Shown piece after piece: positions 2 to 27,684 of a DNA stretch of 64,000 nucleotides (positions within the stretch are counted from its first letter, which is position 1; each line of letters begins with the position of its first letter). Origin of the DNA: Blautia parvula. Its GTDB lineage: Bacteria; Bacillota; Clostridia; Lachnospirales; Lachnospiraceae. The stretch lies in assembly GCF_020215665.1 (NCBI RefSeq), contig NZ_CP084061.1, forward strand, positions 682,001 through 746,000, given 5' to 3'. Position numbers and translations under genes: made by a program. The notes beneath the pieces were generated by a model. That model worked only from the letters and a program-made list of their open reading frames with translations. It was not told the DNA's origin and did no database searches.

Positions 2-3000
2 AAGGCAGATGCGTCCTCTTACCACACAGAGATACCAAAGGCCCCTGACGGTGATACATATCCGCTGACGGCTGCCCAGAGAAGCTTTTATGTGCTGGAG
101 CAGACAGATGAGACAAAGACAGGCTATCACATGCCCGGGATTTTTCTCGTGGAGGGTAATCTGGACAGGGAAACACTGACTCGTGCGTTTCACAGAATCA
201 TAGAGGAGGATGAGACCTTCAGGACAGGATTTGAGATATCCGGTTCCAGCGTACAGGCCCGTGTGCACAGGCAGGTGGAGTTTGAGCTGGAGGAAGTGCA
301 GGGGCGGAATATAAAAGAGGCGGCCGCCGGTTTTATACGGCCGTTTTCCCTTGACAGACCGCCGCTTATGCGGGCCGGATTTTTCACGGAGGGGGAAAAG
401 AAATATCTGCTTCTGGATATACATCACCTGATCTCCGATGGCATGAGCAGCCAGCTTGTTTTTGAACGGCTTCACAGAGCGTGCCTGGGGGAAGAGACGG
501 AAATGCCGAATACTACTTACAGGGATTATGCCTGGTGGGTGGATAAAAGACCGGAAAAACTGCAGAAACGCCAGGAGGATTACTGGAGAGCCAGGCTTTT
601 AGAAGACCGGGAGGAGCTTCGTCTTCCCACAGACAGGATACGCCCCGGTGTGTTTGACGGGCGGGGGGCCAGATATTATTTCCATATGCCGCATGAGATG
701 GAGGAAGCGGGAAGAAAATTTTGTGCCCAGCAGCAGGTGACCCCTTACATGCTGCTTCTGTCCGCATTCGGCATATTGCTCTTCGGCGTGTGCGGACAGG
801 AAAAAATCGTGGTGGGGACTCCTGTTTCAGGCCGGCGCCACGGGGATCTGAGCCGGGTGACAGGTGTGTTCGTGAATACCCTTCCTGTATTTTTGGAGCC
901 GGAGAGAAAGAAAAACTATCTGGAATATCTGCATCAGGTGCGGGAACGTGTGCTGGAAATGCTGGACAATCAGGATACACCCCTGGAAGATATCGTAGCC
1001 ATGTCAAATGCAGAGCGGAACAGGGACAGGAATCCCCTGTATCAGGTGCTGTTTTCCCTGACCGCAGCGCAGACCGAAAATCTGCCTCTGGGAGATGCGA
1101 AACTCTCCATGGTGCAGATGGAAGAAGTATCTGTGAAGATGGATCTTCATCTGGAAGTGATCCAAAGCGGAGAGGAAAGCCGTTTTTGTTTTGAGTACGC
1201 GAAATCTCTTTTTGACAGTGTGACCATTGCGTTTTACAGCCGCTGTTATCTGGAAATCTTAAGACAGATCCTGGAGCTTCCCCATCAGGAGATCGGCAGC
1301 ATCAGTCTGTTGGAGGACAGTGACAGAATCCGCCTGCTGGAGGAACCGAATTTTGTGAGAATGCCTTATGACGGTACTCTGATCGACCGGTTGATCGACC
1401 GGCAGGCACGTCTCTATCCGTCACGCACGGCTGTATGCTGGGGCAGTAATAAGACATATACGTTCGGGGAATTAAAAGAAAAGTCAGATGGTCTGGCAGC
1501 GTATCTGGTCAGCAGGAATATTCAGCATGGAGACAGAGTGGCCTTTCTTTTAAAACGGGATGGGGATATGCTGGCAGCCATGCTGGGAATTTTAAAAGCA
1601 GGAGCTGTCTATCTTCCCCTGGACCCTGCACTTCCGAAAGAACGGATCTGCTATATGCTGGAAAATGCGGAGGCAAAGCTGCTTCTGTGCAGCAATGAAG
1701 TGAAATTGCCCGGTGAGATCCCCTGTCCGGTGCTTCCCCCTGTCTTTGATGGTGACAGGGCAAAACTGCCTGTAAAGGGACGCAGCGGCGGGGATGTGCT
1801 GAATGTGATATATACCTCAGGAACAACAGGACAGCCCAAGGGCGTTATGATGGTACACAAAGCAATTTCAAACCTGGCGGCACATGCAGATGCTATTCTC
1901 GGAAGGGAGAATAGCTGTGTGCTCTGTGCGTCCAACTGCGTATTTGATGTGTTTACCATAGAGACGCTGCTGGCCCTTGCCAGAGGAAGGCGTGTCAGTG
2001 TGGCGGATGAGGAGGAAATGCTTCTCCCCTGGAAGATGGCGGAGCGGATGAGAAAGGACGGCGCTGCGGTGCTGCAGCTCACGCCTTCCAGAATACAGAT
2101 GTGTCTGCAGGAGGCTTCCTTTGCGGAAGTTCTTGCACAGACGGAGGTATTGATCCTCATGGGAGAGCCGTGGACACTGGCACTGAAGGAGAAAATCAGG
2201 AAGCTTACCAATGCCCGGATCTTTAATATCTATGGTCCCACAGAGACATCTGTTTACAACTGCCAGGGGGATATTACGGATGACAATGCCATCCACATAG
2301 GAAAGCCCATCGGCAACTGCCGCTATTATCTTCTGGACCGGGAGATGCGGCAGGTGATGCCTACCGGGACAGGTGAGATTTACATAGCCGGGGAATGCCT
2401 TGCAAAAGGGTATATCAACAGGGATGATCTTACGGAACAGGCATTTCTGCCGGACCCCTTCTTTGCGGGTGAGTTCATGTATAAAACAGGTGATCTGGGA
2501 CGCCTTCGGGCTGACGGGAACTGGCAGTGCCTGGGAAGAGTGGATTCTCAGCTAAAGCTCAACGGACACAGGATTGAGCCTGAAGAAATCGAGGCACAGA
2601 TGCTGCAGTCCGGTCTTGTAAAAGAGGCGGCAGTGGTGCCTGTGAAAAGAGAGGGAACCGTATCAGCGCTCTGTGCTTTTGCTGTGCCCCAGGCCGGATT
2701 TTCGGAAGGATCCGTAAGAGATTTTCTGGCAGAGAGGCTGCCTGACTATATGGTACCCGGTCAGGTGAGAACTCTTGCGCAGATGCCCAGGACCTCCAGC
2801 GGAAAAGCGGACAGGAAGGCTCTGGAAGGAATGGCATGTATTTCGGATACAGAAGAGAAAAACGCACAGGCTGCGGAGGACGAGCATTTCGATGAAACAG
2901 TTATCGCACCGAAGGACGAACATTCCGATGAAACGGTTATCGCACCGGAGGAAATCTGGCGTGAAGTTCTGGGCCAGGAGCCGGATCTGGATAAGAGCTT

Positions 3001-4309
3001 TTTTGTACAGGGAGGAACTTCTCTGACTGCTATTGTGGTTCTGAGCCACTATTACAGTCGGCATTGGGATTTTTCACTCAACGATTTTTACCGGCATCCC
3101 ACTTTGCGGGAACAGATACAGATGATTGGAAAGAGCGCGGATCATGTCTCCGAAAAAGAGGAGAAAACAGAGGGGCTCGAGTCAAAGCCGGCCGCAGCGG
3201 AGGAACGTCTGCCAAGATATGTATGCAGTCTTTCCGAGAAAGCAGATACAGGGAAAAATTTATTGCTGACAGGCGCTGCCGGTTATCTGGGAGCACATCT
3301 TCTTCGAGAACTGACGGCAGATGATCAGAAAACCATATATTGTCTTTTGAGAAAAGGCAGAGAGGCAAAGCTTACGCAGGTGCTTTCCTTCTATTTCGGA
3401 AAAAGCGGTGCAGACAAAATAAAAAGACAGGTCAGGATACTGGAGGGAGATATTACCCTTCCGGATCTGGGACTTGACAGGGAGATATATGAAAACCTCA
3501 CAGATACCATAGAAACCGTAATCCATGCGGCAGCGGATGTCCGTCATTATGCACCCATGGAGGAACTGCTTCTGACAAATGTGGAGGGGACAAAGCATAT
3601 GGTTTCCCTGGCTGAGAAAGCGGACGCGCTGTATATTCATATCTCCACAGTCAGTGTTTCGGGAGAATTTTTAAAGGATGCACCGAAGCTGCCGGCAGTA
3701 TTTTCGGAGAGAGACCTGGATATGGGGCAGAACTGGGAGGAGAATCCCTACGTGAAAAGCAAGATCCTGGCTGAGGCGTGGGTCTGCCGGGCCATGGACA
3801 GGGGATTGAAGGCCGGTATTTTCCGGGTTGGACGCCTCATAGGCAGAAAGAGCGACGGGGTGTTCCAGATAAATCCGGAGACCAACGCGTTTTACCGTCT
3901 GGTAAAAGGTATTCTGGAACTTGGGCAGATGCCGGAAGAATTTTACCGCATGCTGCTTGAGGTCACACCTGTAGACCAGTGTGCCCGGGCCGTCTGCAGT
4001 CTGATGGGACAGCCGGGCGGTGCCTGGCATATTGTGAATCCGGATGAGGTGTCTTTGGGTGCCCTTCTGGAAGAATGCGGGCAGGTAGAGTGTGTATCTG
4101 ACCAGGTATTTGAGGAAAATTTGAGAAAACAGGCGTCAGCGTCCAGTTCACCCTATATACAGGCTGCAGCGGAAACTTATTTTTCAGGCAGGGCACAGAG
4201 AACTGCCATTTATGTGGATGCGAGAAGGACGGTATGTGAACTGAAACGTGTGCAGTTTGACTGGGACCATACGGACTTATATCAGGCAGTGCGCTGTTTT
4301 AGAAGCTGA
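2..4309 (+). CDS. Nonribosomal peptide synthetase, C-A-PCP-reductase module (5' end cut by window)
   Basis: The frame is open from base 2, so the GTG at 92 is an internal valine (SFYVLEQ) and the true start lies upstream. Domains in order: condensation, with the active-site HHLISDG at 422-442; adenylation, with YTSGTTGQPKG near 1808, YGPTE near 2232, YKTGDLGR and the terminal lysine in SSGKADRK; a carrier domain with GGTSL, its phosphopantetheine serine at codon 3020; and a thioester reductase domain from about 3260 (TGAAGYLG, HAAADVRHY, YxxxK in NPYVKSKILAE). Family knowledge: a terminal reductase releases the chain with NAD(P)H as an aldehyde or alcohol. A hand-read pocket code is roughly D-V-I-Q-I-M-I-V-Y-K; the leading Asp fits an alpha-amino acid, but I do not assign a substrate. 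It is followed after 20 nt by a sensor kinase, and AMP-ligase and ACP genes lie downstream in the same run. Confidence 0.93.
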   Translation, partial: KADASSYHTEIPKAPDGDTYPLTAAQRSFYVLEQTDETKTGYHMPGIFLVEGNLDRETLTRAFHRIIEEDETFRTGFEISGSSVQARVHRQVEFELEEVQGRNIKEAAAGFIRPFSLDRPPLMRAGFFTEGEKKYLLLDIHHLISDGMSSQLVFERLHRACLGEETEMPNTTYRDYAWWVDKRPEKLQKRQEDYWRARLLEDREELRLPTDRIRPGVFDGRGARYYFHMPHEMEEAGRKFCAQQQVTPYMLLLSAFGILLFGVCGQEKIVVGTPVSGRRHGDLSRVTGVFVNTLPVFLEPERKKNYLEYLHQVRERVLEMLDNQDTPLEDIVAMSNAERNRDRNPLYQVLFSLTAAQTENLPLGDAKLSMVQMEEVSVKMDLHLEVIQSGEESRFCFEYAKSLFDSVTIAFYSRCYLEILRQILELPHQEIGSISLLEDSDRIRLLEEPNFVRMPYDGTLIDRLIDRQARLYPSRTAVCWGSNKTYTFGELKEKSDGLAAYLVSRNIQHGDRVAFLLKRDGDMLAAMLGILKAGAVYLPLDPALPKERICYMLENAEAKLLLCSNEVKLPGEIPCPVLPPVFDGDRAKLPVKGRSGGDVLNVIYTSGTTGQPKGVMMVHKAISNLAAHADAILGRENSCVLCASNCVFDVFTIETLLALARGRRVSVADEEEMLLPWKMAERMRKDGAAVLQLTPSRIQMCLQEASFAEVLAQTEVLILMGEPWTLALKEKIRKLTNARIFNIYGPTETSVYNCQGDITDDNAIHIGKPIGNCRYYLLDREMRQVMPTGTGEIYIAGECLAKGYINRDDLTEQAFLPDPFFAGEFMYKTGDLGRLRADGNWQCLGRVDSQLKLNGHRIEPEEIEAQMLQSGLVKEAAVVPVKREGTVSALCAFAVPQAGFSEGSVRDFLAERLPDYMVPGQVRTLAQMPRTSSGKADRKALEGMACISDTEEKNAQAAEDEHFDETVIAPKDEHSDETVIAPEEIWREVLGQEPDLDKSFFVQGGTSLTAIVVLSHYYSRHWDFSLNDFYRHPTLREQIQMIGKSADHVSEKEEKTEGLESKPAAAEERLPRYVCSLSEKADTGKNLLLTGAAGYLGAHLLRELTADDQKTIYCLLRKGREAKLTQVLSFYFGKSGADKIKRQVRILEGDITLPDLGLDREIYENLTDTIETVIHAAADVRHYAPMEELLLTNVEGTKHMVSLAEKADALYIHISTVSVSGEFLKDAPKLPAVFSERDLDMGQNWEENPYVKSKILAEAWVCRAMDRGLKAGIFRVGRLIGRKSDGVFQINPETNAFYRLVKGILELGQMPEEFYRMLLEVTPVDQCARAVCSLMGQPGGAWHIVNPDEVSLGALLEECGQVECVSDQVFEENLRKQASASSSPYIQAAAETYFSGRAQRTAIYVDARRTVCELKRVQFDWDHTDLYQAVRCFRS
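2879..2950 (+). repeat. 36-bp tandem duplication in the A-PCP linker
   Basis: Two adjacent 36-bp copies (2879-2914 and 2915-2950) encode DEHFDETVIAPK and DEHSDETVIAPE. They differ at only a few bases, so the duplication looks recent. It is in frame, lengthens the flexible linker between the adenylation and carrier domains, and touches no catalytic motif. Confidence 0.9.
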
Positions 4310-4329
4310 GAGGAAAGCAGGGAGATTTT

Positions 4330-6150
4330 ATGGAACGAATCATGACACATCTGGTGGATGTAGCGGTCACTATTCTGATTTTCTTTCTTTACAGCTGTAT
4401 CCGGAAGGGCAGACTGCCGCTGCTGCAGAGGCTCTACGTGGCGGCATCGGCGTTTCTCCTTATCTGGCTTCTGGCGATTGCCGGAATCCTGGGGGGTGCT
4501 GACAGCAGTATGCAGGTGCTCACCATACTGGACGCTATCACCTGCGGTGCCTGCGCGCTGATGGTGGTCACTGTGCTGCTTTTGACAATTGCGTTTATAT
4601 ACAATTATGAAAAGCTTCCAAGGATATTTTATTTTCTCTATATCCTGCCGGTGGTGACCTCCCTGATCGTATTTACAAATCCATGGCATCATCTTTTTTA
4701 TAAACAGTTTTCCATCTATGCCTCAGAGGTGAAATTCGGACCGTTGTTCATCCTGTCAGGCAGTCAGTATTATATTTACTGTATTCTGTCCATTGTGCTG
4801 GCCTTAAGGAACGGCATCAGGAAGAGAAATAACAGCGCAGTGTGGCAGTCCATTTTATTTGCATGGGGGCTGATCGTGCCGGTGTGTGTCAATCTTTTAG
4901 CAACCCTGAAGATTGTCAATCTGTCCATCGCGGCAACTCCCATTGCTTTCATGTTCACGATCATCTGCCACGGAATAGCAATTTATTATCTGAATTTTTT
5001 AAACATCAAGCCCATTGCACTGCAGAATATAATTGACAATATTTCGGATGGTTATGTGATCATTTCCTCAGACAGCCAGATCATCAATATGAATGATGCC
5101 TTCCGGGAGAATTTCGGGGAAAGCTACGGTATGAAAAATAACGTATATCTGGACCGGCAGGTGGAAGTTCTGGATGAACAGAAAAGGGATGTGATCTACA
5201 ATCTGTTAAGCTTTTTTGATATCTGCAGGCAGACGGTGAGCGTGATCACCTATGAGCAGGCAGTGATAAAAGACGACAAAAAGATTTATTATTCCGTGGA
5301 GCTGACTCCGGTATTCGGAAAACAGAGAATGATGGGCGTGGTGGCGCTTTTCAAGGACGTGACACAGGTAAAAGAGGAGATTCAGCAGCAGCAGCAGAAA
5401 CTGAGCCAGGAGATGGAGCGGGAGCGGCTGGCTTCCCTGGGACAGATGATCGGAGGCATTTCCCATAACTTAAAGACACCGATCATGTCTGTCTCAGGCA
5501 GTGTGGAGTCTCTGGAAAAACTGGTGGATGAATATACGATCAGTCTTGGGGATGAAGATGTGACGATGGAGGATTATCAGGAAATTGCGGGGGATATGAG
5601 AGCGTGGCTTGGAAAAATCAGGGAGAGCTGTGCTTACATGTCTGATATCATCACCACAGTGAAGGGACTGGCTACGAATATGAACACCAACAATATTGTG
5701 GAATTTACAGTGGATGAAGTGTTCAGAAGAGTGTTTCTGCTGATGAAGCACAGTCTTGCCAAGCACGGCTGTGTTTTATCCATGGAAAATGAACTGCCCG
5801 GGGATGCTGTTTTAAAGGGGGATATCAACAATCTGGTACAGGTGGTCAACAATCTGGTGGACAATGCCATGGATGCCATGAAGGAGGAAGGCGGGAAGAT
5901 CACCCTCTGCGCGGAAAAGAAAAACGGGAATATTCTGATCAAGGTGAAGGACAGCGGACCGGGAATTGCCCCGGAGGTTATGGAACGGCTGTTTCACTCC
6001 ATGGTGACGACGAAAGGGGCAATGGGAACCGGCCTGGGGCTTTACAGTTCCGCAGGTTTGATACGGGGTAAGTTCAGCGGAAGAATGTGGGCTGAGAATC
6101 TGCCGGAGGGCGGAGCTGTCTTCTGCGTGGAACTGCCCCTGCAAAGTTAA
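4330..6150 (+). CDS. Membrane sensor histidine kinase (7TM-PAS-HisKA-HATPase)
   Basis: 606 residues. Roughly the first 235 hold about seven hydrophobic segments, as in the 7TM N-terminal region of histidine kinases. A PAS-like segment follows (about 235-345), then a Q/E-rich helix and the dimerisation helix with the phospho-acceptor H379 in SHNLKTP. The ATP-binding domain shows the N box NNLVDNAMDAM and the glycine boxes DSGPGI and GTGLGL. The gene starts 20 nt after the peptide synthetase and the response regulator follows 29 nt later, so the three are probably one transcript. Expected role: sense a membrane or extracellular signal and phosphorylate the adjacent HD-GYP regulator. The ligand is unknown; self-sensing of the peptide product is only a guess. 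Confidence 0.9.
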   Translation: MERIMTHLVDVAVTILIFFLYSCIRKGRLPLLQRLYVAASAFLLIWLLAIAGILGGADSSMQVLTILDAITCGACALMVVTVLLLTIAFIYNYEKLPRIFYFLYILPVVTSLIVFTNPWHHLFYKQFSIYASEVKFGPLFILSGSQYYIYCILSIVLALRNGIRKRNNSAVWQSILFAWGLIVPVCVNLLATLKIVNLSIAATPIAFMFTIICHGIAIYYLNFLNIKPIALQNIIDNISDGYVIISSDSQIINMNDAFRENFGESYGMKNNVYLDRQVEVLDEQKRDVIYNLLSFFDICRQTVSVITYEQAVIKDDKKIYYSVELTPVFGKQRMMGVVALFKDVTQVKEEIQQQQQKLSQEMERERLASLGQMIGGISHNLKTPIMSVSGSVESLEKLVDEYTISLGDEDVTMEDYQEIAGDMRAWLGKIRESCAYMSDIITTVKGLATNMNTNNIVEFTVDEVFRRVFLLMKHSLAKHGCVLSMENELPGDAVLKGDINNLVQVVNNLVDNAMDAMKEEGGKITLCAEKKNGNILIKVKDSGPGIAPEVMERLFHSMVTTKGAMGTGLGLYSSAGLIRGKFSGRMWAENLPEGGAVFCVELPLQS

Positions 6151-6179
6151 GAGAAAAGATTATTTGAGGTGAAGAAGGT

Positions 6180-7694
6180 ATGCGAAAAAATAAGGCAGGA
6201 CAGCAGAAAAATGGCTTCACCATGCTGGTTCTGGATGACGACAAGAATATTACGGACGCACTGTATTCCTATTTTGAATCCTCCGGCTATACTGTAGAGA
6301 CGGAAAACGATCCGCTGGGCGCTCTGGAGAAGATGAAGAACAAATCCTATGATATTCTTTTGCTGGATTTTATCATGTACCCCATCTGCGGGGATCAGGT
6401 GGTGGCACGTCTGCGGCAGTTTGATACCAGAATTTTTGTGATCATGCTTACCGGGCACAGGGAGGTGGCACCGCCTCTGAACACGATCCGGGAGCTGGAT
6501 ATTCAGGGGTATTTTGAGAAAAGCGACCGTTTTGACCAGCTTGAACTCTTAGTGGAAAGCTGTGTCAAGTCCATCCGGCAGATGCGCACGGTCTACCGTT
6601 ACCAGGACGGGCTGGGATCCATCTTAGGCTCCATACCCAGTATACATCAGCTTCTCTCCCTGGATGTGGTACTTGGAAGGATTCTGGGACAGATGCTGCT
6701 TTTGGGGGATAACAGGCACGGATTTGCCTGGATCAAGCCCAAAAGGATCATATCATCCATGCCTGTGGAAAATCTGCCGGATGATATTTTCCAGGGAAGC
6801 GGAAAATATGAAAAAAAACTGGAACAGTTTTTAAAAGAGGATTATCCGCAGTTTGAAAATGCTGTGCAGAAGGCAGGCAGCAGCGGGGAAATTCAGGAGT
6901 TTGACGGACTTTTCCTGGTTCCGCTCAAGGCAAACCATGATATCTTTCTGGGAGTTTTGGGAATCGGACGGGATTCCGCCTATTCTGATGTGCAGCAGCG
7001 TCTTCTGGCTGTCTACGGGGAACAGGTCACCACAGCGCTTCACAACACGATCCTTCACATGCTTCTGAATATTAACAACAGAAAACTCAGTCTGACGTAT
7101 TCCCGGCTGAAAGAGAGCTATATGCAGACCGTGGAGGCCCTTCGGCTTCTGGTGGATGCCAAGGATGATTACACCCGGGGGCATTCTGACAGGGTCTCCA
7201 TGTACGCAGAGAAAATAGCCAAGAAGACAGGGATGGAAGAATCCCAGACAGAATGTGTCAGGTGCGCCGGACTGCTCCACGATATAGGAAAAGTAGGAGT
7301 CTCTGACGCAATTTTGTGCAAAGAGGATAAACTGACAGAGGAAGAGTTTGCCGTGATACGAAGACATCCGGAAATCGGAGGGAAGATTCTCTCCTGCATA
7401 GACATGTTTCACAATCTGGGAGAGATCGTGCGGGCGCACCACGAACGGATAGACGGCCGCGGATATCCGGACGGCCTGAGAGGGGAACAGATTCCCCCGG
7501 AAGCGCGGATGATCTCCATTGCCGATGCTTTTGATGCCATGATGTCGGACCGTCATTACAGAAAACGACTTTCCCTGGCAAAAGCAAAAGAGGAGCTGGA
7601 AGCGGGGAAGGGCACACAATTTGACGCAGGGCTGGTGGAGGTTTTTCTGGAGCTGATAGCAAATGGTGAGCTGGGAGAACTGGAGGGGACATGA
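6180..7694 (+). CDS. Response regulator with receiver, GAF-like and HD-GYP domains
   Basis: 504 residues. The receiver domain has acidic residues in LDDDKN, the phospho-acceptor D63 in DILLLDF, the conserved Thr in MLTGH and Lys in YFEKSD. The middle (about 150-310) resembles a GAF domain by pattern only. The C-terminal HD-GYP domain carries LLHDIGKVG near residue 367 and HHERIDGRGYPDG near 420-432, so the metal ligands and the GYP signature are intact. Known for the family: hydrolysis of cyclic di-GMP (or cGAMP) by a binuclear metal site. There is no DNA-binding domain, so output is a second-messenger change rather than direct promoter binding. It overlaps the next gene by 4 nt (ATGA), which suggests tight co-translation with the acyl-activating enzyme. 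Confidence 0.92.
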   Translation: MRKNKAGQQKNGFTMLVLDDDKNITDALYSYFESSGYTVETENDPLGALEKMKNKSYDILLLDFIMYPICGDQVVARLRQFDTRIFVIMLTGHREVAPPLNTIRELDIQGYFEKSDRFDQLELLVESCVKSIRQMRTVYRYQDGLGSILGSIPSIHQLLSLDVVLGRILGQMLLLGDNRHGFAWIKPKRIISSMPVENLPDDIFQGSGKYEKKLEQFLKEDYPQFENAVQKAGSSGEIQEFDGLFLVPLKANHDIFLGVLGIGRDSAYSDVQQRLLAVYGEQVTTALHNTILHMLLNINNRKLSLTYSRLKESYMQTVEALRLLVDAKDDYTRGHSDRVSMYAEKIAKKTGMEESQTECVRCAGLLHDIGKVGVSDAILCKEDKLTEEEFAVIRRHPEIGGKILSCIDMFHNLGEIVRAHHERIDGRGYPDGLRGEQIPPEARMISIADAFDAMMSDRHYRKRLSLAKAKEELEAGKGTQFDAGLVEVFLELIANGELGELEGT

Positions 7695-9340
7695 GACTGG
7701 ATTATCCTTTAAACAATGTAAATACATATGAGACAGTCGGGGAATTTCTGCAGAAGGCAGAGTCACGCTTTGGGGACAGACCGGCGGTCACTGTCTATGA
7801 CTGGGAGGGAAAGGAACACTGCTATACCTACCGGATGCTTGCAAGGGATGCAAAGGCGCTTGCGCTGGTGCTCCTGGATATGGGTATCGCAGGGAAACAT
7901 CTGGCGATCGCAGGGGAGAACGGCTATGAGTGGCTTGTGATGTTTTTGGCCTGCTGTTCTGTGGGCGCTGTGGCGCTTCCTGTGGATGTGGAGCAGCAGG
8001 ATGAGAAAATCCTGCAGTGCATCCGTTACGGTGACTCCTGCATGGCTGCCGTTTCCCGGGAATATGAATTTCTGTTTCAGGATTTTCCCGGCTGCCCTGT
8101 GCTCTGTCTGTGGGATGCTCACAGTGACAACAGCTTTCCCTCTCTTCTTTTAAGGGGATACGAGGCGCTTAAGAGCAGGGAGGAAGAGCTGAACCTTGCA
8201 ATGGATAAAGTACAGGCAGATGAGACGGCTGTCATCATCTACACCTCCGGTACTTTAAACAGTCCGAAACCGGTCATGCTCAGCCACGGCAATATTATGT
8301 TCAATGCCTGCCATGCCCAGGCACTGGTGGAGGCAGGGGATAAGGCATATACCTGCCTGCCTTTATATCATGCGTATTCCCTTGTGTGCGGTGCGTTAAA
8401 TGTCCTGACACAGGGGCAGCATCTGGGATTGAACGGAAGTGTGAAGAACTGGATGCGGGACCTGCGCCTGTTTTGCCCGGAGATGATACTTCTGGTTCCC
8501 ATGATGATGGAATCCCTGATCCGCAGCATCCGTCTGGAACAGAAGCGGGACGGCACGCGGGAGGAGGCAAAAAAGGCATTGAAAAGGTACCAAAGCCGGA
8601 AAAAATATCATCTGTCCTGCAGTCCTTTTGTGCACGATGCGTTAACACGCGTTCTCGGGGACTCTGTCTCCCTTATCATCTGCGGAGGTGCTCAGCAGAA
8701 CGAGCGGCTGGCCCAGGAGTTTGGCTGCTACGGAATCTGCGTGCTGCAGGGATACGGGGTTACGGAGTGCGGTCCTCTTATTTCCGTAAACAGAAACCGC
8801 AGACACAGGGAAAATTCCGTGGGCGTGCTGCTTCCAGAGACCAGAGTGAAGATTCGGGACGGGGAGATTCTGGTTAAGGGTCCGTCAGTCTTTAAAGGTT
8901 ATTATAAAGCGGACGGGGAGACAAAAAAAGCATTTTCGGATGGCTGGTTCTGTACCGGAGATCTGGGATATATGGACAGGAAAGGGTTTCTCTACATTAC
9001 GGGGAGAAAAAAGAATCTGGTGGTGTTCAGCAACGGTAAAAAAGTGGTGCCCGAGGAGTTGGAGGAGCTCATACTGCAGATCCCTCTTGTCAGGGAAGTG
9101 ATGGTATATGGAGCCAGTAACGGGCAGACAGCCGATGATGTGAAGCTCTCCGCGGTCATTTACGCGGATCCGCAGAAGACCCGGGGCATGACAAGCTATG
9201 AAGTGCTGGAGCGGATTCAGGAGGAGATTTATGAGCTGAATAAAAAACTGCCTTTTCATAAAAGAATCCAGCTTATCCGCATGACAGAAGCGGAGTTTAA
9301 GAAGACATCCATCTATAAAATAAAAAGGGGGCGTTTTTGA
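7691..9340 (+). CDS. AMP-dependent acyl-activating enzyme (acyl-CoA synthetase/acyl-ACP ligase family)
   Basis: 549 residues of the ANL superfamily. The P-loop reads YTSGTLNSPKPVMLSH where the family normally has TSGTTGxPKGV, so the second Thr-Gly and the Gly after PK are missing. Other core motifs are intact: YGVTECGP, WFCTGDLGY, GRKKNLVVFSNGKKVVPEE and a C-terminal lysine region (FKKTSIYKIKRGRF). Family role: activate a carboxylic acid as its adenylate and pass it to CoA or a carrier protein. The acyl carrier protein gene starts inside its stop codon (TGATG), so the likely job is to load a fatty or aryl acid on that ACP for N-acylation of the peptide. A stand-alone CoA ligase cannot be excluded. 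Confidence 0.85.
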   Translation: MRLDYPLNNVNTYETVGEFLQKAESRFGDRPAVTVYDWEGKEHCYTYRMLARDAKALALVLLDMGIAGKHLAIAGENGYEWLVMFLACCSVGAVALPVDVEQQDEKILQCIRYGDSCMAAVSREYEFLFQDFPGCPVLCLWDAHSDNSFPSLLLRGYEALKSREEELNLAMDKVQADETAVIIYTSGTLNSPKPVMLSHGNIMFNACHAQALVEAGDKAYTCLPLYHAYSLVCGALNVLTQGQHLGLNGSVKNWMRDLRLFCPEMILLVPMMMESLIRSIRLEQKRDGTREEAKKALKRYQSRKKYHLSCSPFVHDALTRVLGDSVSLIICGGAQQNERLAQEFGCYGICVLQGYGVTECGPLISVNRNRRHRENSVGVLLPETRVKIRDGEILVKGPSVFKGYYKADGETKKAFSDGWFCTGDLGYMDRKGFLYITGRKKNLVVFSNGKKVVPEELEELILQIPLVREVMVYGASNGQTADDVKLSAVIYADPQKTRGMTSYEVLERIQEEIYELNKKLPFHKRIQLIRMTEAEFKKTSIYKIKRGRF

Positions 9341-9591
9341 TGCGCAGTGAAGCTTACCTGTCTGTTATTGAAGAACTTGTTTATCAGGTGACCGGAATCA
9401 GCGAACTGACCCCCGATACGGATTTTATCAGGGATTTGGCGCTGAATTCTCTGGATGTGGCAAACCTTGTCTGTGCCTTTGAGGACAGGTTTCAGGTGGA
9501 AATCCCTGTGCGGGATGTATGGCAGTTGTCCCAGGTGCGGGATGTAATAGAATATATGCAGAAAAAAGCAATGCATAAAAAACAGGTGTAA
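9340..9591 (+). CDS. Acyl carrier protein (free-standing)
   Basis: 83 residues from the ATG at 9340, which shares one base with the upstream TGA; the preceding GGGGG gives a ribosome binding site and fixes this start over the in-frame TTG at 9337. The sequence folds as a carrier protein by pattern: FIRDLALNSLDVANLV carries the serine for 4'-phosphopantetheine in the LNSLD motif, followed by FEDRFQVEIP as in ACP helix III. It is the last gene of the peptide synthetase operon. Inferred role: receive the acyl group from the adjacent AMP ligase and offer it to a condensation domain. No phosphopantetheinyl transferase is present in the window, so one must be supplied from elsewhere. Confidence 0.9.
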   Translation: MRSEAYLSVIEELVYQVTGISELTPDTDFIRDLALNSLDVANLVCAFEDRFQVEIPVRDVWQLSQVRDVIEYMQKKAMHKKQV

Positions 9592-10515: not shown

Positions 10516-10855
10516 CAGGGAACAGGATGAGAAGTTCCTGTCAAGCAGGCAGGAGAACATCCGCCTTGCAATTGCTCTGGAGCGTTTTTTTGAATTATGC
10601 CCTGAGGACGGCCTTTTATATGAGCGGTACAGGGAATATCTGAAGAAGCGTTTCCGTCCTGCCATGGAAAAACTGATGAAAGCCAGGGAGACAGAGAAAG
10701 TAAAAGTTCTTTTTGGTTTGGATACAGTGACACCGGTGCAGATGGATGAACTTCTGGCACTGGCGCAGAAGTATGGAAGTACGGAAAGTGTTTTATGGCT
10801 TCTGTCAAAAAAAGAGGAGCAGTTCGGATTTGGCGGAAAGGATATGGAATTATGA
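10502..10855 (+). CDS. Small hypothetical protein of the MoxR/VWA cluster
   Basis: 117 residues, mostly predicted helix, rich in charged residues, without signal peptide, membrane segment or a motif I recognise. It overlaps the upstream dehydrogenase by 14 nt and the downstream VWA gene by 4 nt, and has no strong Shine-Dalgarno, so translation is probably coupled to the upstream gene. The context (immediately before a VWA protein and a MoxR-type ATPase) suggests an accessory subunit of that pair. No function assigned. Confidence 0.7.
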   Translation: MKNSSREQDEKFLSSRQENIRLAIALERFFELCPEDGLLYERYREYLKKRFRPAMEKLMKARETEKVKVLFGLDTVTPVQMDELLALAQKYGSTESVLWLLSKKEEQFGFGGKDMEL

Positions 10856-12141
10856 GACAGGCAGAGGAAATTGCACAGGAAATCTGGGCATTGGCCAAGC
10901 AGGAAATTTCCTGCGCCTGTCCTTTTTTTGTGCTGGCATGCAGTTATCTGAAAACGGCAGCAGATGAAACATGTGCCTGCACCTGTACAGACGGCAGGGT
11001 GCTCCATTATTCTCCCAAAGCTGTTCTGACTGATTTTGCGGAAAAGGGCAGGAAATACATAAACAGAGTGTATCTGCACAGCCTGTTCCATTGCCTCTAC
11101 CTGCACCCCGCAGACCGTGAGGAACGAGATGAGGAGCTGTGGAATCTGGCCTGTGACATAGTGGCAGAATATACGGTGGATTGCCTTGGCATGCCCTTCC
11201 TTACAGGGGAAGCCGGAAAAGAAAAAACGGAAGTTTACCGCCTGTTCTGGAAGGGGAAAAAATCCAGGACCGCAGCACAGATTTATGACATGCTGCGGGA
11301 GGGGGAGTTTGGAAAGAGCTGTACAGATGCCTGGAGAAGTCTGTTTTTTATGGACGGGCACAGTCTCTGGAGAATGCTTTCCAAGGGAGAGCTTGCCGGT
11401 ATCCGGGATGTATGGGAAAAGGCAGCGGCATATACCAGCAGGGATGCGGGAAATGCCGGTAAGAGGGCAGGAAGTGAAAAAGGGAATAGGCAGGAATGGT
11501 ATGAGCTGCAGCAAAAAAGAAGGTATGATTACCGGAAATTTCTGCGGCGTTTTGCTGTGCAGAGAGAGGAAGTCCAGCTCGATATGGAAAGTTTTGATTA
11601 TATTTCCTATTGCCTTGGACTGTCTATGTATGGTAACATGCCACTGGTGGAGCCTCTGGAATATACAGAGGCATGCAAGCTTGAGGAAATCGTCATAGCC
11701 ATTGATACGTCCAGCTCCTGTTCCCGGGAAATGGTACAGCGTTTTTTGGAAGAGACGTATTCCATGCTCAGTGAGAGAGAAAATTTTTTCAGGAAAATGA
11801 ATGTCCACGTCATACAGTGTGACTGCTACATCCAGGAGGATGTGACCCTGTGCTGCGAGGAGGACTGGCGGGCTTATATGAAGCAGATTCGGATCCAGGG
11901 AAGGGGCGGCACGGATTTCCGCCCGGTATTTACTTATGTGGACAGGCTGATCAGAGAGAAAAAGATCAGAAATTTAAAAGGGCTTCTGTATTTTACGGAC
12001 GGGGACGGCATCTATCCCGCCGGGAAGCCGGACTATGAGACAGCATTTATTTTAATAAAGGAGCCTCCGGGAAATGTGAAAATCCCTTCGTGGGCTATCC
12101 GTCTGTATCTGGATGAGAGAAAGGCAGGATCAGGAGTATGA
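10852..12141 (+). CDS. VWA-domain protein with putative metallopeptidase-like N-terminus (DUF2201 type)
   Basis: 429 residues from the ATG at 10852, which overlaps the upstream stop (ATGA). The N-terminal half contains HSLFHCLYLH, resembling the zinc-type helix of DUF2201 proteins. The C-terminal half is a von Willebrand A-like domain with metal-ion site residues DTSSS near residue 284, GGTDF near 352 and FTDGDG. Known context for the family: VWA proteins of this type work with a MoxR-like AAA+ ATPase, and here that gene overlaps the stop codon. Such pairs act as chaperones in metal cofactor insertion or complex assembly; the client here is unknown. Whether the peptidase-like region is catalytic is uncertain because the classical HExxH is not intact. 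Confidence 0.85.
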   Translation: MRQAEEIAQEIWALAKQEISCACPFFVLACSYLKTAADETCACTCTDGRVLHYSPKAVLTDFAEKGRKYINRVYLHSLFHCLYLHPADREERDEELWNLACDIVAEYTVDCLGMPFLTGEAGKEKTEVYRLFWKGKKSRTAAQIYDMLREGEFGKSCTDAWRSLFFMDGHSLWRMLSKGELAGIRDVWEKAAAYTSRDAGNAGKRAGSEKGNRQEWYELQQKRRYDYRKFLRRFAVQREEVQLDMESFDYISYCLGLSMYGNMPLVEPLEYTEACKLEEIVIAIDTSSSCSREMVQRFLEETYSMLSERENFFRKMNVHVIQCDCYIQEDVTLCCEEDWRAYMKQIRIQGRGGTDFRPVFTYVDRLIREKKIRNLKGLLYFTDGDGIYPAGKPDYETAFILIKEPPGNVKIPSWAIRLYLDERKAGSGV

Positions 12142-13691
12142 ATATCGGGCAGGCAAAACAGGAAATAGAAAATACCGTGCGGGCCTACACAAAAAAGAAG
12201 GCTGACGGAACTTACGCCATACCGGCTGTGCACCAGCGTCCGGTGCTTTTGATCGGTCCTCCGGGAATCGGCAAGACAGCTATAATGGAACAGGCTGCAG
12301 AAAGCCTGCAGATCGGCCTTGTGGCCTACACCATTACCCACCATACAAGGCAGAGTGCCATCGGACTGCCGGTCATTGAAAAAAGGCAGTTTGACGGAAA
12401 AGAATATACGGTGACAGAATATACCATGAGTGAAATTGTGGCGTCTGTTTACCGGTGCATGGAGCGGACGGGGTGCAGAGAGGGCATCTTGTTTATTGAC
12501 GAGATCAACTGTGTCTCAGAAACGCTTGCACCCACCATGCTCCAGTTTCTTCAGTGCAAGACTTTTGGGAGCCATAAGATACCGGAGGGCTGGGTCATAG
12601 TGGCAGCGGGAAATCCTCCCGAGTACAACAAATCCGTAAGGGAATTTGACATGGTCACCCTGGACAGGATCAAGCGGATCGAGGTGACAGAGGATTACGG
12701 CGTATGGAAATGTTATGCCAGAGAGCATGGGATACATGCATCCATTCCCGCATACCTGGATGTGCGGAGGGAGAATTTCTACCGCACCGAGGCAAATGCG
12801 GAGGGGCATTATTTTGTCACGGCCAGGGGCTGGGAGGATCTATCGCGGATGATGTATGTGTATGAGGAGCTTGGGATTCCTGTCACAGACGAGTTCGTGT
12901 TCCAATATATCCAGCAGCCGGAAGTAGCAAAGGATTTTACGGGATTTTACGGACTCTGCAGAAAATATCAGGAAGATTATGCGTTTTCTTCGCTTTTGGA
13001 CGGGACTATGGATGATGCTGCGGTAAAGGAGAAAGAGGAACGGCTGAAAAGATCCGGTTATGATGAACGTATGGCGGTGATCAGTCTTCTTTTGGGAGCC
13101 GTGCATACAGCGCTTGCCCGGTATGCTGCCGGTGAACGGGAGACAAAGGCCCTTTATGAGGAAGCCCGCAGACTGAAGAACGGTCTGGATGTTCAGGAGC
13201 CGGAAGAGGCGGCCCGGATGCTGGATCATGAAATGGAAAAGCGGCAGCGCGCACTGGAGATAAAAAAGGAAGCGGGACTGTACCGGGAGGATGAAGCGTA
13301 TCTTGCCCGGTATGTGACAGACTGGGTAAGGCGTTATCTGTATGAGTGGAAAAAGGTGAGCAGCCGGCAGGAATGCACGGCTTCCTCTGTATTAAAAGAG
13401 ATGTTTGAACAGGAAAAGAAAAAACTGGATGATGCAAGAGCAGATGTGCAGCGGCTTTTGGAGCGGGCTTTTGCCTTTGCCGGTGAGGCTTTTTCAGGCG
13501 GACAGGAGATGGCTGTGTTCACAGAGGAGATTTCCAGGGATGAGACAGTGATGAAGTTCATCTTGGAAAATGGCTGTAAGGCGTACCGGGAAGCAGGAAA
13601 GATCCTGCAGACAGAGAAGAGAGAGCGTGAACTGAAGGAGGAAATCCGGGAGTTGTCGGATTGTCTTCAGACAGGAGAAAACATTTTGTGA
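12138..13691 (+). CDS. MoxR-like AAA+ ATPase
   Basis: 517 residues. Walker A GPPGIGKT at residues 40-47 and Walker B ILFIDEIN near 117-124 are intact, followed by the sensor region VAAGNPPEYNKS. The C-terminal 250 residues are helical and charged, longer than in minimal MoxR proteins. The start overlaps the VWA gene stop by 4 nt, so the two are stoichiometrically coupled. Expected role: ATP-driven remodelling of a client protein, with the VWA partner as adaptor. The next gene (a symporter) starts 89 nt later and may be independently expressed. Confidence 0.9.
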   Translation: MNIGQAKQEIENTVRAYTKKKADGTYAIPAVHQRPVLLIGPPGIGKTAIMEQAAESLQIGLVAYTITHHTRQSAIGLPVIEKRQFDGKEYTVTEYTMSEIVASVYRCMERTGCREGILFIDEINCVSETLAPTMLQFLQCKTFGSHKIPEGWVIVAAGNPPEYNKSVREFDMVTLDRIKRIEVTEDYGVWKCYAREHGIHASIPAYLDVRRENFYRTEANAEGHYFVTARGWEDLSRMMYVYEELGIPVTDEFVFQYIQQPEVAKDFTGFYGLCRKYQEDYAFSSLLDGTMDDAAVKEKEERLKRSGYDERMAVISLLLGAVHTALARYAAGERETKALYEEARRLKNGLDVQEPEEAARMLDHEMEKRQRALEIKKEAGLYREDEAYLARYVTDWVRRYLYEWKKVSSRQECTASSVLKEMFEQEKKKLDDARADVQRLLERAFAFAGEAFSGGQEMAVFTEEISRDETVMKFILENGCKAYREAGKILQTEKRERELKEEIRELSDCLQTGENIL

Positions 13692-24233: not shown

Positions 24234-24570
24234 AAGTTGAATTGATTAACACTTTAAACCGATGAACAAGAGGAGTAGGTAAGAATATTTACTTCCAGAG
24301 AGCCGTTGCTGGTGGGAATGCGGCAGTAAGAGTTTTTACTGAATGGACTTGTGAGGGCAGCTTGAAACCTTTGTGATCCGAATAGGATTTGGGAGAAGGA
24401 AGTAGACGCTGACGGGGAGCTTATCCGTTATCAAGGAGCAGTGTATGATAGTACATGAAAGAGCGGTTCATATTACGTTAAGTATATGAGCAATATGGGT
24501 GGTACCGCAGGAGTTTTGAATTTACAGCTCTTGTCCCATTGGAGAAATCTGATGGGGCAGGAGCTTTTTT
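24234..24570 (+). promoter_or_regulatory. T-box riboswitch, tryptophan specific
   Basis: T-box core GGGTGGTACCGCAG at 24497-24510 and a terminator at the 3' end. GAA-TGG at 24341-24346 puts TGG (tryptophan codon, 24344-24346) in the same context as the TAC of the tyrS leader. Uncharged tRNA-Trp should permit readthrough into trpE. This leader fills most of the gap 24107-24616. Confidence 0.92.
24526..24570 (+). terminator. T-box attenuator terminator before trpE
   Basis: AGCTCTTGTCCCAT (24526-24539) pairs with ATGGGGCAGGAGCT (24552-24565), followed by T residues to 24570. Confidence 0.92.
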
Positions 24571-24616
24571 ATTTACAGAAAAACCTGATCTCGCTCTTTG
24601 GAAAGGGAGGAAAAAC

Positions 24617-26083
24617 ATGACGATTACACCAGACTGCAACACAATCCTGAAACTGGCAGAAAAATATTCCATTGTACCTGTATGCAGAGAAATCTATGCG
24701 GATGTTACAACACCTATTACGCTGCTCCGCAAACTTACAGGGTTCTCGAAAAGATACTATCTTCTGGAGAGTATCGAGGGCGGGGAGACTTGGGGAAGAT
24801 ATTCCTTTTTGGGATATGACCCGGTCATGCGGGTAACCTGCAGGGACCGCAAAGTATATATAGAAAAGCAGGGGAAGACAGAAACTGTGGAGACAGAAAA
24901 GCCTCTGCATGTACTGAGAGAAATCATGAAAGATTACAAGTCTCCGAGGCTTTCCGGTATGCCTCCGTTTACCGGCGGTTTTGTGGGATATTTCGCATAT
25001 TCCATGGTGGGCTATGCGGAACCGGTACTCAATATTAAAAAAGGCACATTTCCGGATTATGATGTGATGCTTTTTGACAAGGTGATCGCCTATGACCATC
25101 TGAAACAGAAAATCTGTATCATTGTCAATATGCGGACTGATAAAGTGATGGAGAATTATGGGGAAGCCACAGCGGAGATCGCCAGAATAGCCGGACTGAT
25201 CAAAAGTGCACCGGTGCCTGCCATAGCCGGTGAACCGGAGCAGATAGATTTCACCTGCAATGTAAGCAGAGAAGAATACTGCAGCATTGTGGAGAAAACG
25301 AAAGAATACATAAGAGACGGAGATATCTTCCAGGCTGTCATTTCCAGACAGTTCAGCAGCCCTATGAAGGGAAGTCTCCTGAATGCCTACCGGGTCCTGC
25401 GCACCACGAACCCGTCCCCATACATGGTATATCTCCACTTTGATGAGGAGGAGCTGATGAGTACCTCACCGGAAACACTGGTCCGTCTTCAGGACGGCAG
25501 ACTGACAACCTTCCCGGTGGCAGGCTCCAGACCAAGGGGCATGGATGCAGAGGAGGATGAAGCTCTTGAGAGGGACCTTCTGCAGGACGAAAAGGAGCTG
25601 TCAGAGCACAATATGCTGGTGGATCTGGGAAGAAACGACCTGGGACGTATCAGCCGGTTTGGCTCTGTGGAAGTGACGAAATACATGATGATTCACCGCT
25701 ACTCGAAAATTATGCACATCTGTTCCCAGGTGGAAGGTTCCATCCGGGAGGATAAGGATGCACTGGATGCCATTGAGGCTGTGCTTCCGGCAGGAACTCT
25801 TTCCGGAGCTCCGAAAATCAGAGCCTGTGAGATCATTGAGGAGCTGGAAAGCACAGAGAGAGGTGTATATGGCGGTGCCATCGGTTATTTGGATTTTGCC
25901 GGCAATCTGGACACCTGCATTGCCATCCGCATGGCAGTCAAAAAGGACGGAAAGGTCTATGTGCAGGCCGGCGGCGGAATTGTGGCAGACAGTGTACCGG
26001 AGCTTGAATATGAAGAATCGGCAAATAAAGCGGCAGCGGTTATGCAGGCCATCCAAAATGCCGGGGAGGTGGATGAGTTATGA
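24617..26083 (+). CDS. trpE: Anthranilate synthase component I
   Basis: 488 residues from the ATG at 24617, behind AGGGAGG; the longer open frame would begin inside the attenuator terminator and is not used. Catalyses chorismate + ammonia/glutamine to anthranilate. The N-terminal LLES in RYYLLESIEGGETWGRYSF is the tryptophan feedback-binding element of the family; the catalytic half carries FQAVISRQF, TSPETL, PVAGSRPRG, LVDLGRNDLGR and GTLSGAPK. It overlaps trpGD by 4 nt (ATGA), as expected for subunits of one complex. First gene of the T-box-controlled trp operon. Confidence 0.97.
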   Translation: MTITPDCNTILKLAEKYSIVPVCREIYADVTTPITLLRKLTGFSKRYYLLESIEGGETWGRYSFLGYDPVMRVTCRDRKVYIEKQGKTETVETEKPLHVLREIMKDYKSPRLSGMPPFTGGFVGYFAYSMVGYAEPVLNIKKGTFPDYDVMLFDKVIAYDHLKQKICIIVNMRTDKVMENYGEATAEIARIAGLIKSAPVPAIAGEPEQIDFTCNVSREEYCSIVEKTKEYIRDGDIFQAVISRQFSSPMKGSLLNAYRVLRTTNPSPYMVYLHFDEEELMSTSPETLVRLQDGRLTTFPVAGSRPRGMDAEEDEALERDLLQDEKELSEHNMLVDLGRNDLGRISRFGSVEVTKYMMIHRYSKIMHICSQVEGSIREDKDALDAIEAVLPAGTLSGAPKIRACEIIEELESTERGVYGGAIGYLDFAGNLDTCIAIRMAVKKDGKVYVQAGGGIVADSVPELEYEESANKAAAVMQAIQNAGEVDEL

Positions 26084-27684
26084 TAGCATTGATTGACAAT
26101 TACGACAGTTTTACTTACAACCTGGTACAGATGATAGGAACTATTAACCCTGACATCCGCGTGATCCGGAATGATGAGATGACAGTGGAGGAAATCGCCG
26201 CATTACAGCCTTCCCACATCATCCTCTCACCGGGACCCGGATACCCAAAAGATGCAGGCGTATGTGAAGCCGTCATTCAGAGACTGCAGGGCAGAGTTCC
26301 CATTCTGGGGGTCTGCCTGGGACATCAGGCAATCTGTGAGGTGTATGGTGCCAGGATCAGCCATGCCAGACATCTGATGCACGGCAAAAAAAGCAGGGTG
26401 CACATTCAGACGGAAAGCCCTGTCTTCGCAGGCATGGAGGAGGAGATTGACGCAGCCAGGTACCATTCCCTCATAGCAGAAGACGGTACCATCCCTGACT
26501 GTCTGCAGGTATTATCCACAGATGTGGAGAACGGGGAAATCATGGCAGTGGGCCACAGGGAATATCCGGTGTACGGACTCCAGTTCCATCCGGAATCCAT
26601 ACTCACACCAAAAGGAAAAAGCATAATGGAGAATTTTTTAAATATAAAAGCCGGAAGAGGAGATAAGATCATGATCAAAGAGGCAATTCACACACTGATG
26701 GACGGTAAGGATTTAAGCTATGAAGTGGCAAAGGCAGTTATGCACGAAATGATGGACGGCATTGCCACACAGGCCCAGATGGGAGCTTTTCTGGCTGCGC
26801 TGCGCATGCAGGGCGAGAGTATTGACGAGATTACGGCATTTGCTGAGGTCATGAGGGAAAAAGGAATTAAGATAAAGCCGGAGAGAGAGGTCATAGATAT
26901 TGTGGGAACCGGCGGAGATGAGGCGGGAACATTCAATATTTCCACAACTGCCGCATTTGTGGTTGCAGCAGGCGGTGTACCCGTGGCAAAACACGGAAAC
27001 CGCAGCGTATCCAGTAAAAGCGGTGCTGCGGATGTTCTGGAACATCTGGGCGCCAATGTGGCTCTGGATGCAAAGCAGAATGAGACGATCCTCAATAAGA
27101 CCGGCATGTGCTTCATGTTTGCACCTGTTTACCACTCCTCCATGAAATATGCCGCTCCGGTCAGAAAGGAGATGGGGGTCCGTACAGTCTTCAATATTTT
27201 GGGCCCTCTGTCCAATCCGGCAGCTGCCACCATGCAGCTTCTGGGTGTATATGACAAAAACCTGGTGGAGCCGCTGGCTAAGGTGCTGGGCAATCTGGGC
27301 GTGACAAGAGGTGTGGCCGTGTGCGGCGAAGATGGCCTGGATGAGATCACCCTGACCGGGGAAACTACAGTCTGCGAAATACGTTTCGGCGAGACTTCCT
27401 GCTACACCATTTCACCGGAACAGTTTGGCATGGAGCGCTGTGAGCTGGCCCAACTGGTGGGTGGTTCCCCTGCAGACAATGCCCAGATCACAAGAGACAT
27501 TTTATCAGGCCGTGAGACCGGTCCAAAGCGCGACGTGGTTCTTTTAAACGCGGGTATGAGTCTCTATCTGGGAATTGACGGCATTACTCTGCAGGAGGGT
27601 ATTAATATGGCAAGAGAGTTGATAGAGAGCGGAAAAGCGCAGGCGAAATTCGATGAGTTTGTTAAGGCCACAAGAGAACAGTAA
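26080..27684 (+). CDS. trpGD: Fused anthranilate synthase glutaminase and anthranilate phosphoribosyltransferase
   Basis: 534 residues. Residues 1-196 are the class I glutamine amidotransferase TrpG: LSPGPGYP, the nucleophile C79 in GVCLGHQ, and FHPES near 169-173 with the His and Glu of the triad. From M198 the sequence is a complete TrpD with the PRPP-binding DIVGTGGDEAGTFNIST and the KHGNRSVSSKSGAADVLE element. It supplies ammonia to TrpE and then converts anthranilate to phosphoribosyl anthranilate. The join keeps a Shine-Dalgarno and Met codon (26656-26673), evidence that two genes were joined. Such TrpG-TrpD fusions are known in enteric bacteria. Frame is continuous through the join. 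Confidence 0.95.
   Translation: MIALIDNYDSFTYNLVQMIGTINPDIRVIRNDEMTVEEIAALQPSHIILSPGPGYPKDAGVCEAVIQRLQGRVPILGVCLGHQAICEVYGARISHARHLMHGKKSRVHIQTESPVFAGMEEEIDAARYHSLIAEDGTIPDCLQVLSTDVENGEIMAVGHREYPVYGLQFHPESILTPKGKSIMENFLNIKAGRGDKIMIKEAIHTLMDGKDLSYEVAKAVMHEMMDGIATQAQMGAFLAALRMQGESIDEITAFAEVMREKGIKIKPEREVIDIVGTGGDEAGTFNISTTAAFVVAAGGVPVAKHGNRSVSSKSGAADVLEHLGANVALDAKQNETILNKTGMCFMFAPVYHSSMKYAAPVRKEMGVRTVFNILGPLSNPAAATMQLLGVYDKNLVEPLAKVLGNLGVTRGVAVCGEDGLDEITLTGETTVCEIRFGETSCYTISPEQFGMERCELAQLVGGSPADNAQITRDILSGRETGPKRDVVLLNAGMSLYLGIDGITLQEGINMARELIESGKAQAKFDEFVKATREQ
26656..26673 (+). promoter_or_regulatory. Internal ribosome binding site and start codon at the TrpG-TrpD join
   Basis: AGAGGAG (26656-26662), 8-nt spacing, then ATG at 26671, exactly where a separate TrpD would start. 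It may be a relic or may still give free TrpD. Confidence 0.6.

Follow-up and report, generated by a model that had tools for sequence, protein, structure and literature searches.

Gut Clostridia reportedly carry clusters, described by Guo et al. in 2017, whose nonribosomal peptide synthetases (NRPSs) make dipeptide aldehydes, and for ruminopeptin (the subject of Schneider and Balskus in 2018) an N-acylated product and release by a reductase are said to have been predicted. We analysed a 64,000-nucleotide (nt) stretch of the Blautia parvula genome (contig NZ_CP084061.1, positions 682,001 to 746,000; hereafter the window) that opens with the 3' end of such a reductase-ended NRPS, followed by genes for a seven-transmembrane (7TM) histidine kinase, a receiver/HD-GYP response regulator, an AMP-forming acyl ligase and an acyl carrier protein (ACP). 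Open reading frames (ORFs) and Pfam domains reproduced the tight one-strand run of the original prediction, made from the letters of the window (gaps of 29 nt or less, two overlaps, a condensation-adenylation-carrier-reductase end and four partners): 20 nt separate NRPS and kinase and 29 nt kinase and regulator, and overlaps follow at positions 7691-7694 and around 9340. We propose, at a probability of roughly 0.48, that this cassette forms a signalling circuit complete in itself, based on a small molecule and with a logic like that of the Rpf system, in which the NRPS would be the signal synthase, the kinase would sense its product and cyclic di-GMP (c-di-GMP) would be lowered.

NRPSs for peptide aldehydes are already known from gut bacteria, as the accessible parts of three papers describe (PMC12327764, PMC12282076, PMC10794557). 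The cassette resembles those clusters in its anatomy, a reductase NRPS, and in its predicted dipeptide aldehyde; a kinase/HD-GYP pair is not mentioned in those parts of the same three papers. In the Rpf system of Xanthomonas, also named after its diffusible signal factor (DSF), the fatty-acid signal is produced by RpfF and perceived by RpfC, and the HD-GYP protein RpfG hydrolyses c-di-GMP (PMC5391125). The cassette likewise joins a synthase, a membrane histidine kinase and an HD-GYP phosphodiesterase, the latter a receiver/HD-GYP protein with an intact site. However, it contains no RpfF, the NRPS with its ligase and ACP being the only synthase, and its 7TM-PAS kinase lacks the receiver that makes RpfC a hybrid kinase, and RpfC is drawn in PMC5391125 with five transmembrane helices; the cassette regulator, moreover, often carries a DUF3369 domain. 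AusA, the aureusimine synthetase of Staphylococcus aureus, is likewise dimodular and reductase-ended, and its model NF047350 is the best NCBIfam match of our NRPS, but at 717.6 bits against a cut-off of 2500, scored on only the 1,435 amino acids (aa) inside the window; the extra N-terminal condensation domain and the ligase/ACP of the cassette also point to N-acylation. In the Pvf system of proteobacteria an NRPS cluster makes quorum-sensing molecules, but the accessible part of the source gives it four genes (an NRPS, an N-oxygenase and two of unknown function) and names no kinase or HD-GYP protein (PMC10194917). A literature search that covered few subscription papers gave no description that we recognized of an aldehyde NRPS joined to such a kinase/HD-GYP pair, which leaves such absence unproven. 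Thus, the chemistry and the signalling parts are known, and what we have not seen described is their combination and its evolutionary fixity. The natural role of the reactive peptide aldehydes of gut Clostridia is unsettled; a fixed synthase-sensor-hydrolase unit makes the question testable and raises the possibility that the aldehyde serves to signal to the producing cells and their relatives, instead of or besides acting as a protease inhibitor directed against others.

The cassette is conserved as a unit. Scanning the named genomes with only the N-terminal 300 residues of the regulator (receiver plus middle domain) yielded 54 loci, in which we found the ligase 54 times (some copies cut), the kinase 53 times, the NRPS 52 times and the ACP 49 times, the missing genes falling beyond contig ends (L023-L025, L066 and L068; L numbers are our locus handles). 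Since the two peptide patterns of the scan belong to this regulator subfamily, the result describes the subfamily and not all such regulators. With five more loci (L004, L006, L011, L012, L013) we compiled 59 cassettes, and without exception whatever genes each of them contains share one strand and follow one order, with median gaps of -4 to 15 nt. The conservation of the five-gene order, proposed by the original prediction as a check, therefore held, and both the signalling pair and the ligase/ACP stayed with the synthetase. Split ORFs occurred in the NRPS of L020 and the kinases of L034 and L065. A survey of 397 genomes of the family gave nine regulator matches at E <= 1e-100, every one with the five genes in order; among 61 genomes (our own and 60 relatives) full-length regulator matches were restricted to our own, a congener (G008) and a member of another genus (G034), the remaining rows matching only the HD-GYP half.

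Carriers comprise Lachnospiraceae, Oscillospiraceae, Holdemania, metagenome-assembled genomes (MAGs) of Peptococcaceae and Clostridiaceae, and unplaced MAGs. In a tree built from 84 regulators, those of the 59 cassettes form one side of a branch supported by 100/100; L073, whose contig ends inside the kinase, was labelled as NRPS-associated by kinship, L074 by an NRPS fragment only and L072 by an NRPS that ends in another reductase type, and L071 and L088 stand outside the tree. One cluster of flanking genes, seen at 25 loci, was rejected as a shadow-ORF artefact. The occurrence in distant families, including Holdemania, indicates that the cassette has probably moved between lineages, and genes that travel together as neutral, functionally unrelated passengers of horizontal transfer would fit this distribution. 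Nevertheless, the fixed order, catalytic residues that stay invariant even where identity falls to roughly 35-45 percent, and the repeated presence of the pair beside other reductase NRPSs make a purely neutral association very improbable.

The active sites of the signalling proteins are intact. His379 of the kinase is kept in 58 of 58 sequences; in the regulator, Asp19, Asp20, Asp63, Thr91 and Lys114 of the receiver and His335, His367, Asp368, His396, His420, His421, Tyr429 and Pro430 of the HD-GYP domain are kept in all 59, and Asp21 in 57; the ACP serine is kept in 54 of 54. By analogy with RpfC, which restrains RpfF and binds it (PMC5391125), the kinase or the regulator might instead act on the NRPS, the ligase or the ACP, phosphodiesterase activity being secondary, and the close gene spacing would favour a fixed stoichiometry for such feedback. 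Yet the HD-GYP residues are invariant although 16 of the 59 regulators, spread over several branches of the tree, are shorter than 400 aa; five of these 16 were scanned by Pfam, and all five had receiver and HD domains and none a DUF3369 match. These observations indicate that catalysis is what selection keeps, and we consider feedback on the synthase unlikely.

Pfam found no DNA-binding domain in the kinase/regulator pair, which favours a path from product to second messenger over control of production by the second messenger. The original prediction had a dedicated two-component system tying production to cyclic dinucleotide turnover: the dedicated pair and its tie to this turnover stand by sequence, but the direction given there seems to us the less likely one. 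The N-terminal region of the kinase displays seven hydrophobic peaks, and its predicted structure (49 sequences; mean predicted local distance difference test score, pLDDT, 87.0; predicted template-modelling score, pTM, 0.68) has seven long helices and a PAS-like end. In a fold search of the PDB with this N-terminus, the top rows among the 50 of 1192 matches listed are mostly PAS domains and point to no ligand.

The NRPS is cut by the window edge, and extension upstream, as the original prediction had suggested, recovered the full synthetase. From its likely ATG, 3,077 nt before the window, it runs over L004:4425-11810 and encodes 2,461 aa with two condensation (C), two adenylation (A) and two carrier (T) domains and one reductase (R), in the order C-A-T-C-A-T-R; the open frame itself starts with a TTG at 4221. 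Just upstream lies an arginase-family gene (L004:3436-4224), which ends where the NRPS frame begins and has a copy of 79 percent identity in the congener L006. The condensation and carrier motifs of two complete C-A-T modules are intact across the set, except at the first C domain, with HHIIADAW in the window (Ala for the usual Gly), SHFITDGY in L070 and a site that is cut in L057. The reductase Thr-Tyr-Lys motif was present in 14 of 14 sequences of a first set and in 46 of the 47 full-length NRPSs (Ser-Tyr-Lys in L031), so that an inactive reductase, which would have spoken against the original prediction, was not what we found. The parts for lipoinitiation are present as well: the C domain before the first A domain, the acyl ligase and the free ACP imply that the chain should begin with an acyl group, and N-acylation should, from the chemistry, block the usual pyrazinone closure. 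Thus, the pathway for the N-acyl peptide aldehyde originally proposed is encoded in its parts, and the aldehyde itself is a predicted product. Our genome also has one match to the phosphopantetheinyl transferase family.

The two A domains differ in their variability over the 47 full-length NRPSs. The first pocket is near-constant (Asp; Ala/Val; Leu/Ile; Ser/Ala/Thr/Val; Ile/Val/Leu; Cys; Gln; Val/Ile; Ala/Gly), and the second varies, with DVIQIMIVY in the window, DVTQILIVH in Robinsoniella-like loci, DCVELGMVF, DITQIGLVY, DSGQLGMVY and others; pocket positions were set by motif using GrsA numbering and not by superposition. A constant residue beside the acyl chain and a lineage-specific residue bearing the aldehyde are therefore predicted. 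As the codes matched none of those known to us, naming the amino acids from them was abandoned.

The signal is predicted to act through a cyclic dinucleotide, and GGDEF domains were found in all 39 cassette genomes tested (out of 54 named loci, Holdemania included), compared with 225 of 291 genomes drawn evenly from the class (Fisher p 1.6e-4, uncorrected for kinship); our own genome has 42 GGDEF matches. We retrieved the DNA upstream of the NRPS for 35 further loci which, with ten earlier stretches, gave 45 NRPS starts (L148 with only 605 nt before the start). In eight of them a GGDEF gene, Pfam-confirmed in each case, lies directly upstream on the same strand at a gap of -28 to 103 nt. Seven belong to one clade and the eighth (L136, upstream of L052) stands elsewhere in the tree; all eight loci have a short regulator. 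Among these GGDEF proteins, PAS domains scored above cut-off in L140 and L142 and a receiver in L136. In five of these eight loci (L141, L143-L146) the GGDEF gene is itself preceded, in the same orientation, by a gene resembling BTAD-type regulators, and Pfam matched both of those scanned, L144 and L141. In two MAGs, G470 and G473, which may be incomplete, no GGDEF match exists outside the gene just before the NRPS. Our own genome, when scanned, gave two riboswitches of the c-di-GMP-I type that score above cut-off and a third that scores below it, none near the cassette; the first is on the minus strand of L111, the second scores best as the c-di-GMP-I-GGC variant, and both precede ORFs that look, by eye, secreted or surface-bound.

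Outside the cassette, we searched the 291 class genomes with a regulator profile (E <= 1e-90; 23 places in 19 genomes) and a reductase profile (E <= 1e-40; 34 places in 31 genomes). We examined 22 of the 34 reductase neighbourhoods, our own window included, the other 12 scoring 254.1 bits or lower. Kinase and regulator were both present in 10 of the 22, and the kinase accompanied 12 of the 13 best-scoring reductase places; among the ten with the pair, only our own window had an ACP match in the stretch, and a ligase match in L096 lies 4.5 kb upstream on the opposite strand. Five of the 23 regulator places adjoin an R-type NRPS (our own, L089, L090, L107 and L108), L072 lies beside an NRPS of another reductase type and L074 beside an NRPS fragment; contigs end inside the kinase in L071 and L073, and L084 has no kinase match. 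These counts imply that the kinase/regulator pair is tied to reductase NRPSs more widely than the ligase/ACP set is, and that it also exists alone. The NRPS of L072, with kinase and regulator directly behind it, has a C-A-T module followed by ~390 aa (L072:7030-8211) without a Pfam or R-profile match. Two entries among solved structures, 9e4s and 9e4x, both titled 'Amino acid adenylation domain protein', match this end with an E of about 1e-75, and models of PigE (5.5e-12) and acyl-ACP reductase (0.0056) match it weakly. The end is probably a different NAD(P)-dependent, aldehyde-forming release domain, and the pair would thus stay while the reductase type changes. One further stretch, L106:5309-11547, holds a reductase NRPS with ACP and ligase and no kinase or regulator of this family.

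These features suggest the following sequence of events. As read from the domains, the ligase would activate a fatty acid and charge the ACP with it, the first C domain would hand the acyl group to the amino acid chosen by the near-constant pocket, module 2 would add a second amino acid through the variable pocket and the reductase would free the N-acyl dipeptide as an aldehyde. This product might leave the cell or stay in the membrane, where the 7TM/PAS kinase could sense it and phosphorylate the receiver of the HD-GYP protein, which would then hydrolyse a cyclic dinucleotide, most likely c-di-GMP. The expected output would be a change in surface and attachment functions controlled by c-di-GMP, to which some lineages add a GGDEF gene of their own, with the BTAD-type regulator before it. 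With synthase, sensor and hydrolase in one operon, autoinduction by the N-acyl dipeptide aldehyde is the simplest reading. We tentatively extend it, at somewhat short of an even chance, to a new class of cell-cell signalling, widespread in gut Clostridia, in which an NRPS would make an N-acyl dipeptide aldehyde with a fixed inner residue and a variable terminal one, private to each lineage, and a dedicated 7TM kinase and an HD-GYP protein would convert it into a c-di-GMP signal, one clade having a diguanylate cyclase in the operon. If true, the known protease-inhibiting gut aldehydes would include autoinducers, Rpf-type signalling would gain a counterpart in anaerobic Gram-positives and HisKA_7TM kinases a candidate ligand class, and a handle on the attachment and biofilm decisions of gut bacteria would become available.

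We also looked at the co-variation of sensor and product code in 43 of the 47 full-length NRPS loci, leaving out L034, L057, L065 and L066 (split or cut genes). Loci differ from one another by a mean pairwise distance of 0.593 in the 7TM region, 0.565 in PAS and 0.439 in the kinase core. Once kinase core, ligase and HD-GYP domain are controlled for, the 7TM region tracks the code of the second A domain (partial r 0.245, p 0.0005), which is not so for PAS (0.062, p 0.15) or the ligase (-0.157). Among 35 distant locus pairs with an identical code, nine sharing DVTQILIVH have close 7TM regions, eight of them at percentile <=0.06.

Several observations weigh against the proposed circuit. The second code is also tracked by the kinase core (0.135), and the HD-GYP domain, with r 0.447, tracks it more strongly than the 7TM region does; the whole second A domain and the R domain are tracked better by the kinase core (0.351 and 0.300) than by the 7TM region (0.178 and 0.093); lineage effects were therefore not removed and the test is confounded. 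Furthermore, the DVTQILIVH pairs are close in their PAS and HD-GYP parts too, and for 12 of 17 distant pairs with DCVELGMVF the 7TM distance is no smaller than the median residual. We consider the co-variation suggestive but confounded and do not use it as proof of the proposed ligand sensing. The closest solved HD-GYP relative of the regulator, 5z7c, is a phosphodiesterase of 3'3'-cGAMP (cyclic GMP-AMP). Seven cassette stretches gave no Rfam match at gathering score, and a riboswitch link at the cassette locus was dropped for this reason. Finally, among the 22 reductase neighbourhoods three have the kinase without the regulator (L093, L097, L104) and nine have neither (L098-L103, L105, L106, L109), and two other families have the regulator but no NRPS: f63, with a kinase and no NRPS in the stretch at four places (L078, L081, L087, L088; L081 and L088 are short contigs), and f76, with the regulator alone at nine. 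In f63 this pair follows a 543-aa protein (L078:3854-5482, L087:3147-4775), whose L078 copy has a weak PilZNR match below cut-off (E 0.0055).

Accordingly, the genes might be co-expressed without any sensing of the aldehyde, the kinase reading another cue (protease activity, the state of the envelope or a compound from host or diet) and the pair setting the cyclic dinucleotide level to a lifestyle in which an aldehyde protease inhibitor is useful. The NRPS-less pair of f63 and the lone regulator of f76 agree with this possibility, since the ancestral signal need not then be an aldehyde, and gut dipeptide aldehydes are described as protease or cathepsin inhibitors in PMC10794557 and PMC12282076. 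However, the cassette never separates within the subfamily (kinase in 53 and NRPS in 52 of 54 loci, the rest being cut contigs), and the pair also accompanies reductase NRPSs of different make-up, so that we find co-expression alone a serious but rather doubtful explanation.

Table 1. Coordinates of the cassette features in the window and of the GGDEF genes upstream of other cassettes.
Feature	Position	Strand	Basis
Dimodular NRPS, 3' part (module 2 C-A-T and terminal reductase)	2..4309	+	ORF, Pfam
Second condensation domain, HHLISDG	53..1330	+	PF00668, motif
Second adenylation domain, pocket placed by motif	1397..2806	+	PF00501, PF13193
Second carrier domain, GGTSL	2951..3127	+	PF00550, motif
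Terminal thioester reductase, Thr-Tyr-Lys present	3266..3994	+	PF07993; TIGR01746 below its cut-off
Sensor histidine kinase	4330..6150	+	HisKA_7TM, HATPase_c; PAS_9 and HisKA below cut-offs
Kinase, 7TM region	~4363-5013	+	Pfam, predicted structure
Kinase, PAS	5044-5367	+	Pfam, predicted structure
Kinase, HisKA	5437-5652	+	Pfam, predicted structure
Kinase, HATPase	5818-6144	+	Pfam, predicted structure
Response regulator	6180..7694	+	Response_reg 6225-6545, DUF3369 6558-7061, HD-GYP (HD_5) 7143-7628
AMP-forming acyl ligase, proposed ACP loader	7691..9340	+	PF00501, PF23562
Acyl carrier protein, phosphopantetheine serine ~9448-9450	9340..9591	+	PF00550
Upstream GGDEF gene	L140:4262-5245	same as NRPS	Pfam
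Upstream GGDEF gene	L141:572-2667	same as NRPS	Pfam
Upstream GGDEF gene	L142:639-1616	same as NRPS	Pfam
Upstream GGDEF gene	L143:4005-4964	same as NRPS	Pfam
Upstream GGDEF gene	L144:713-2796	same as NRPS	Pfam
Upstream GGDEF gene	L145:3904-4827	same as NRPS	Pfam
Upstream GGDEF gene	L146:671-1582	same as NRPS	Pfam
Upstream GGDEF gene	L136:678-2219	same as NRPS	Pfam

Elsewhere in the window, a T-box, the only Rfam match there, forms a leader upstream of trpE and of a gene that fuses trpG and trpD (24253-27684). Two adjacent genes at 10795-13691, coding for 448 and 517 aa, had no NCBIfam match at 1e-30; by eye, the 517-aa product resembles an AAA ATPase and the 448-aa product a VWA-type partner. 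The genome also contains a carbon-monoxide dehydrogenase gene.

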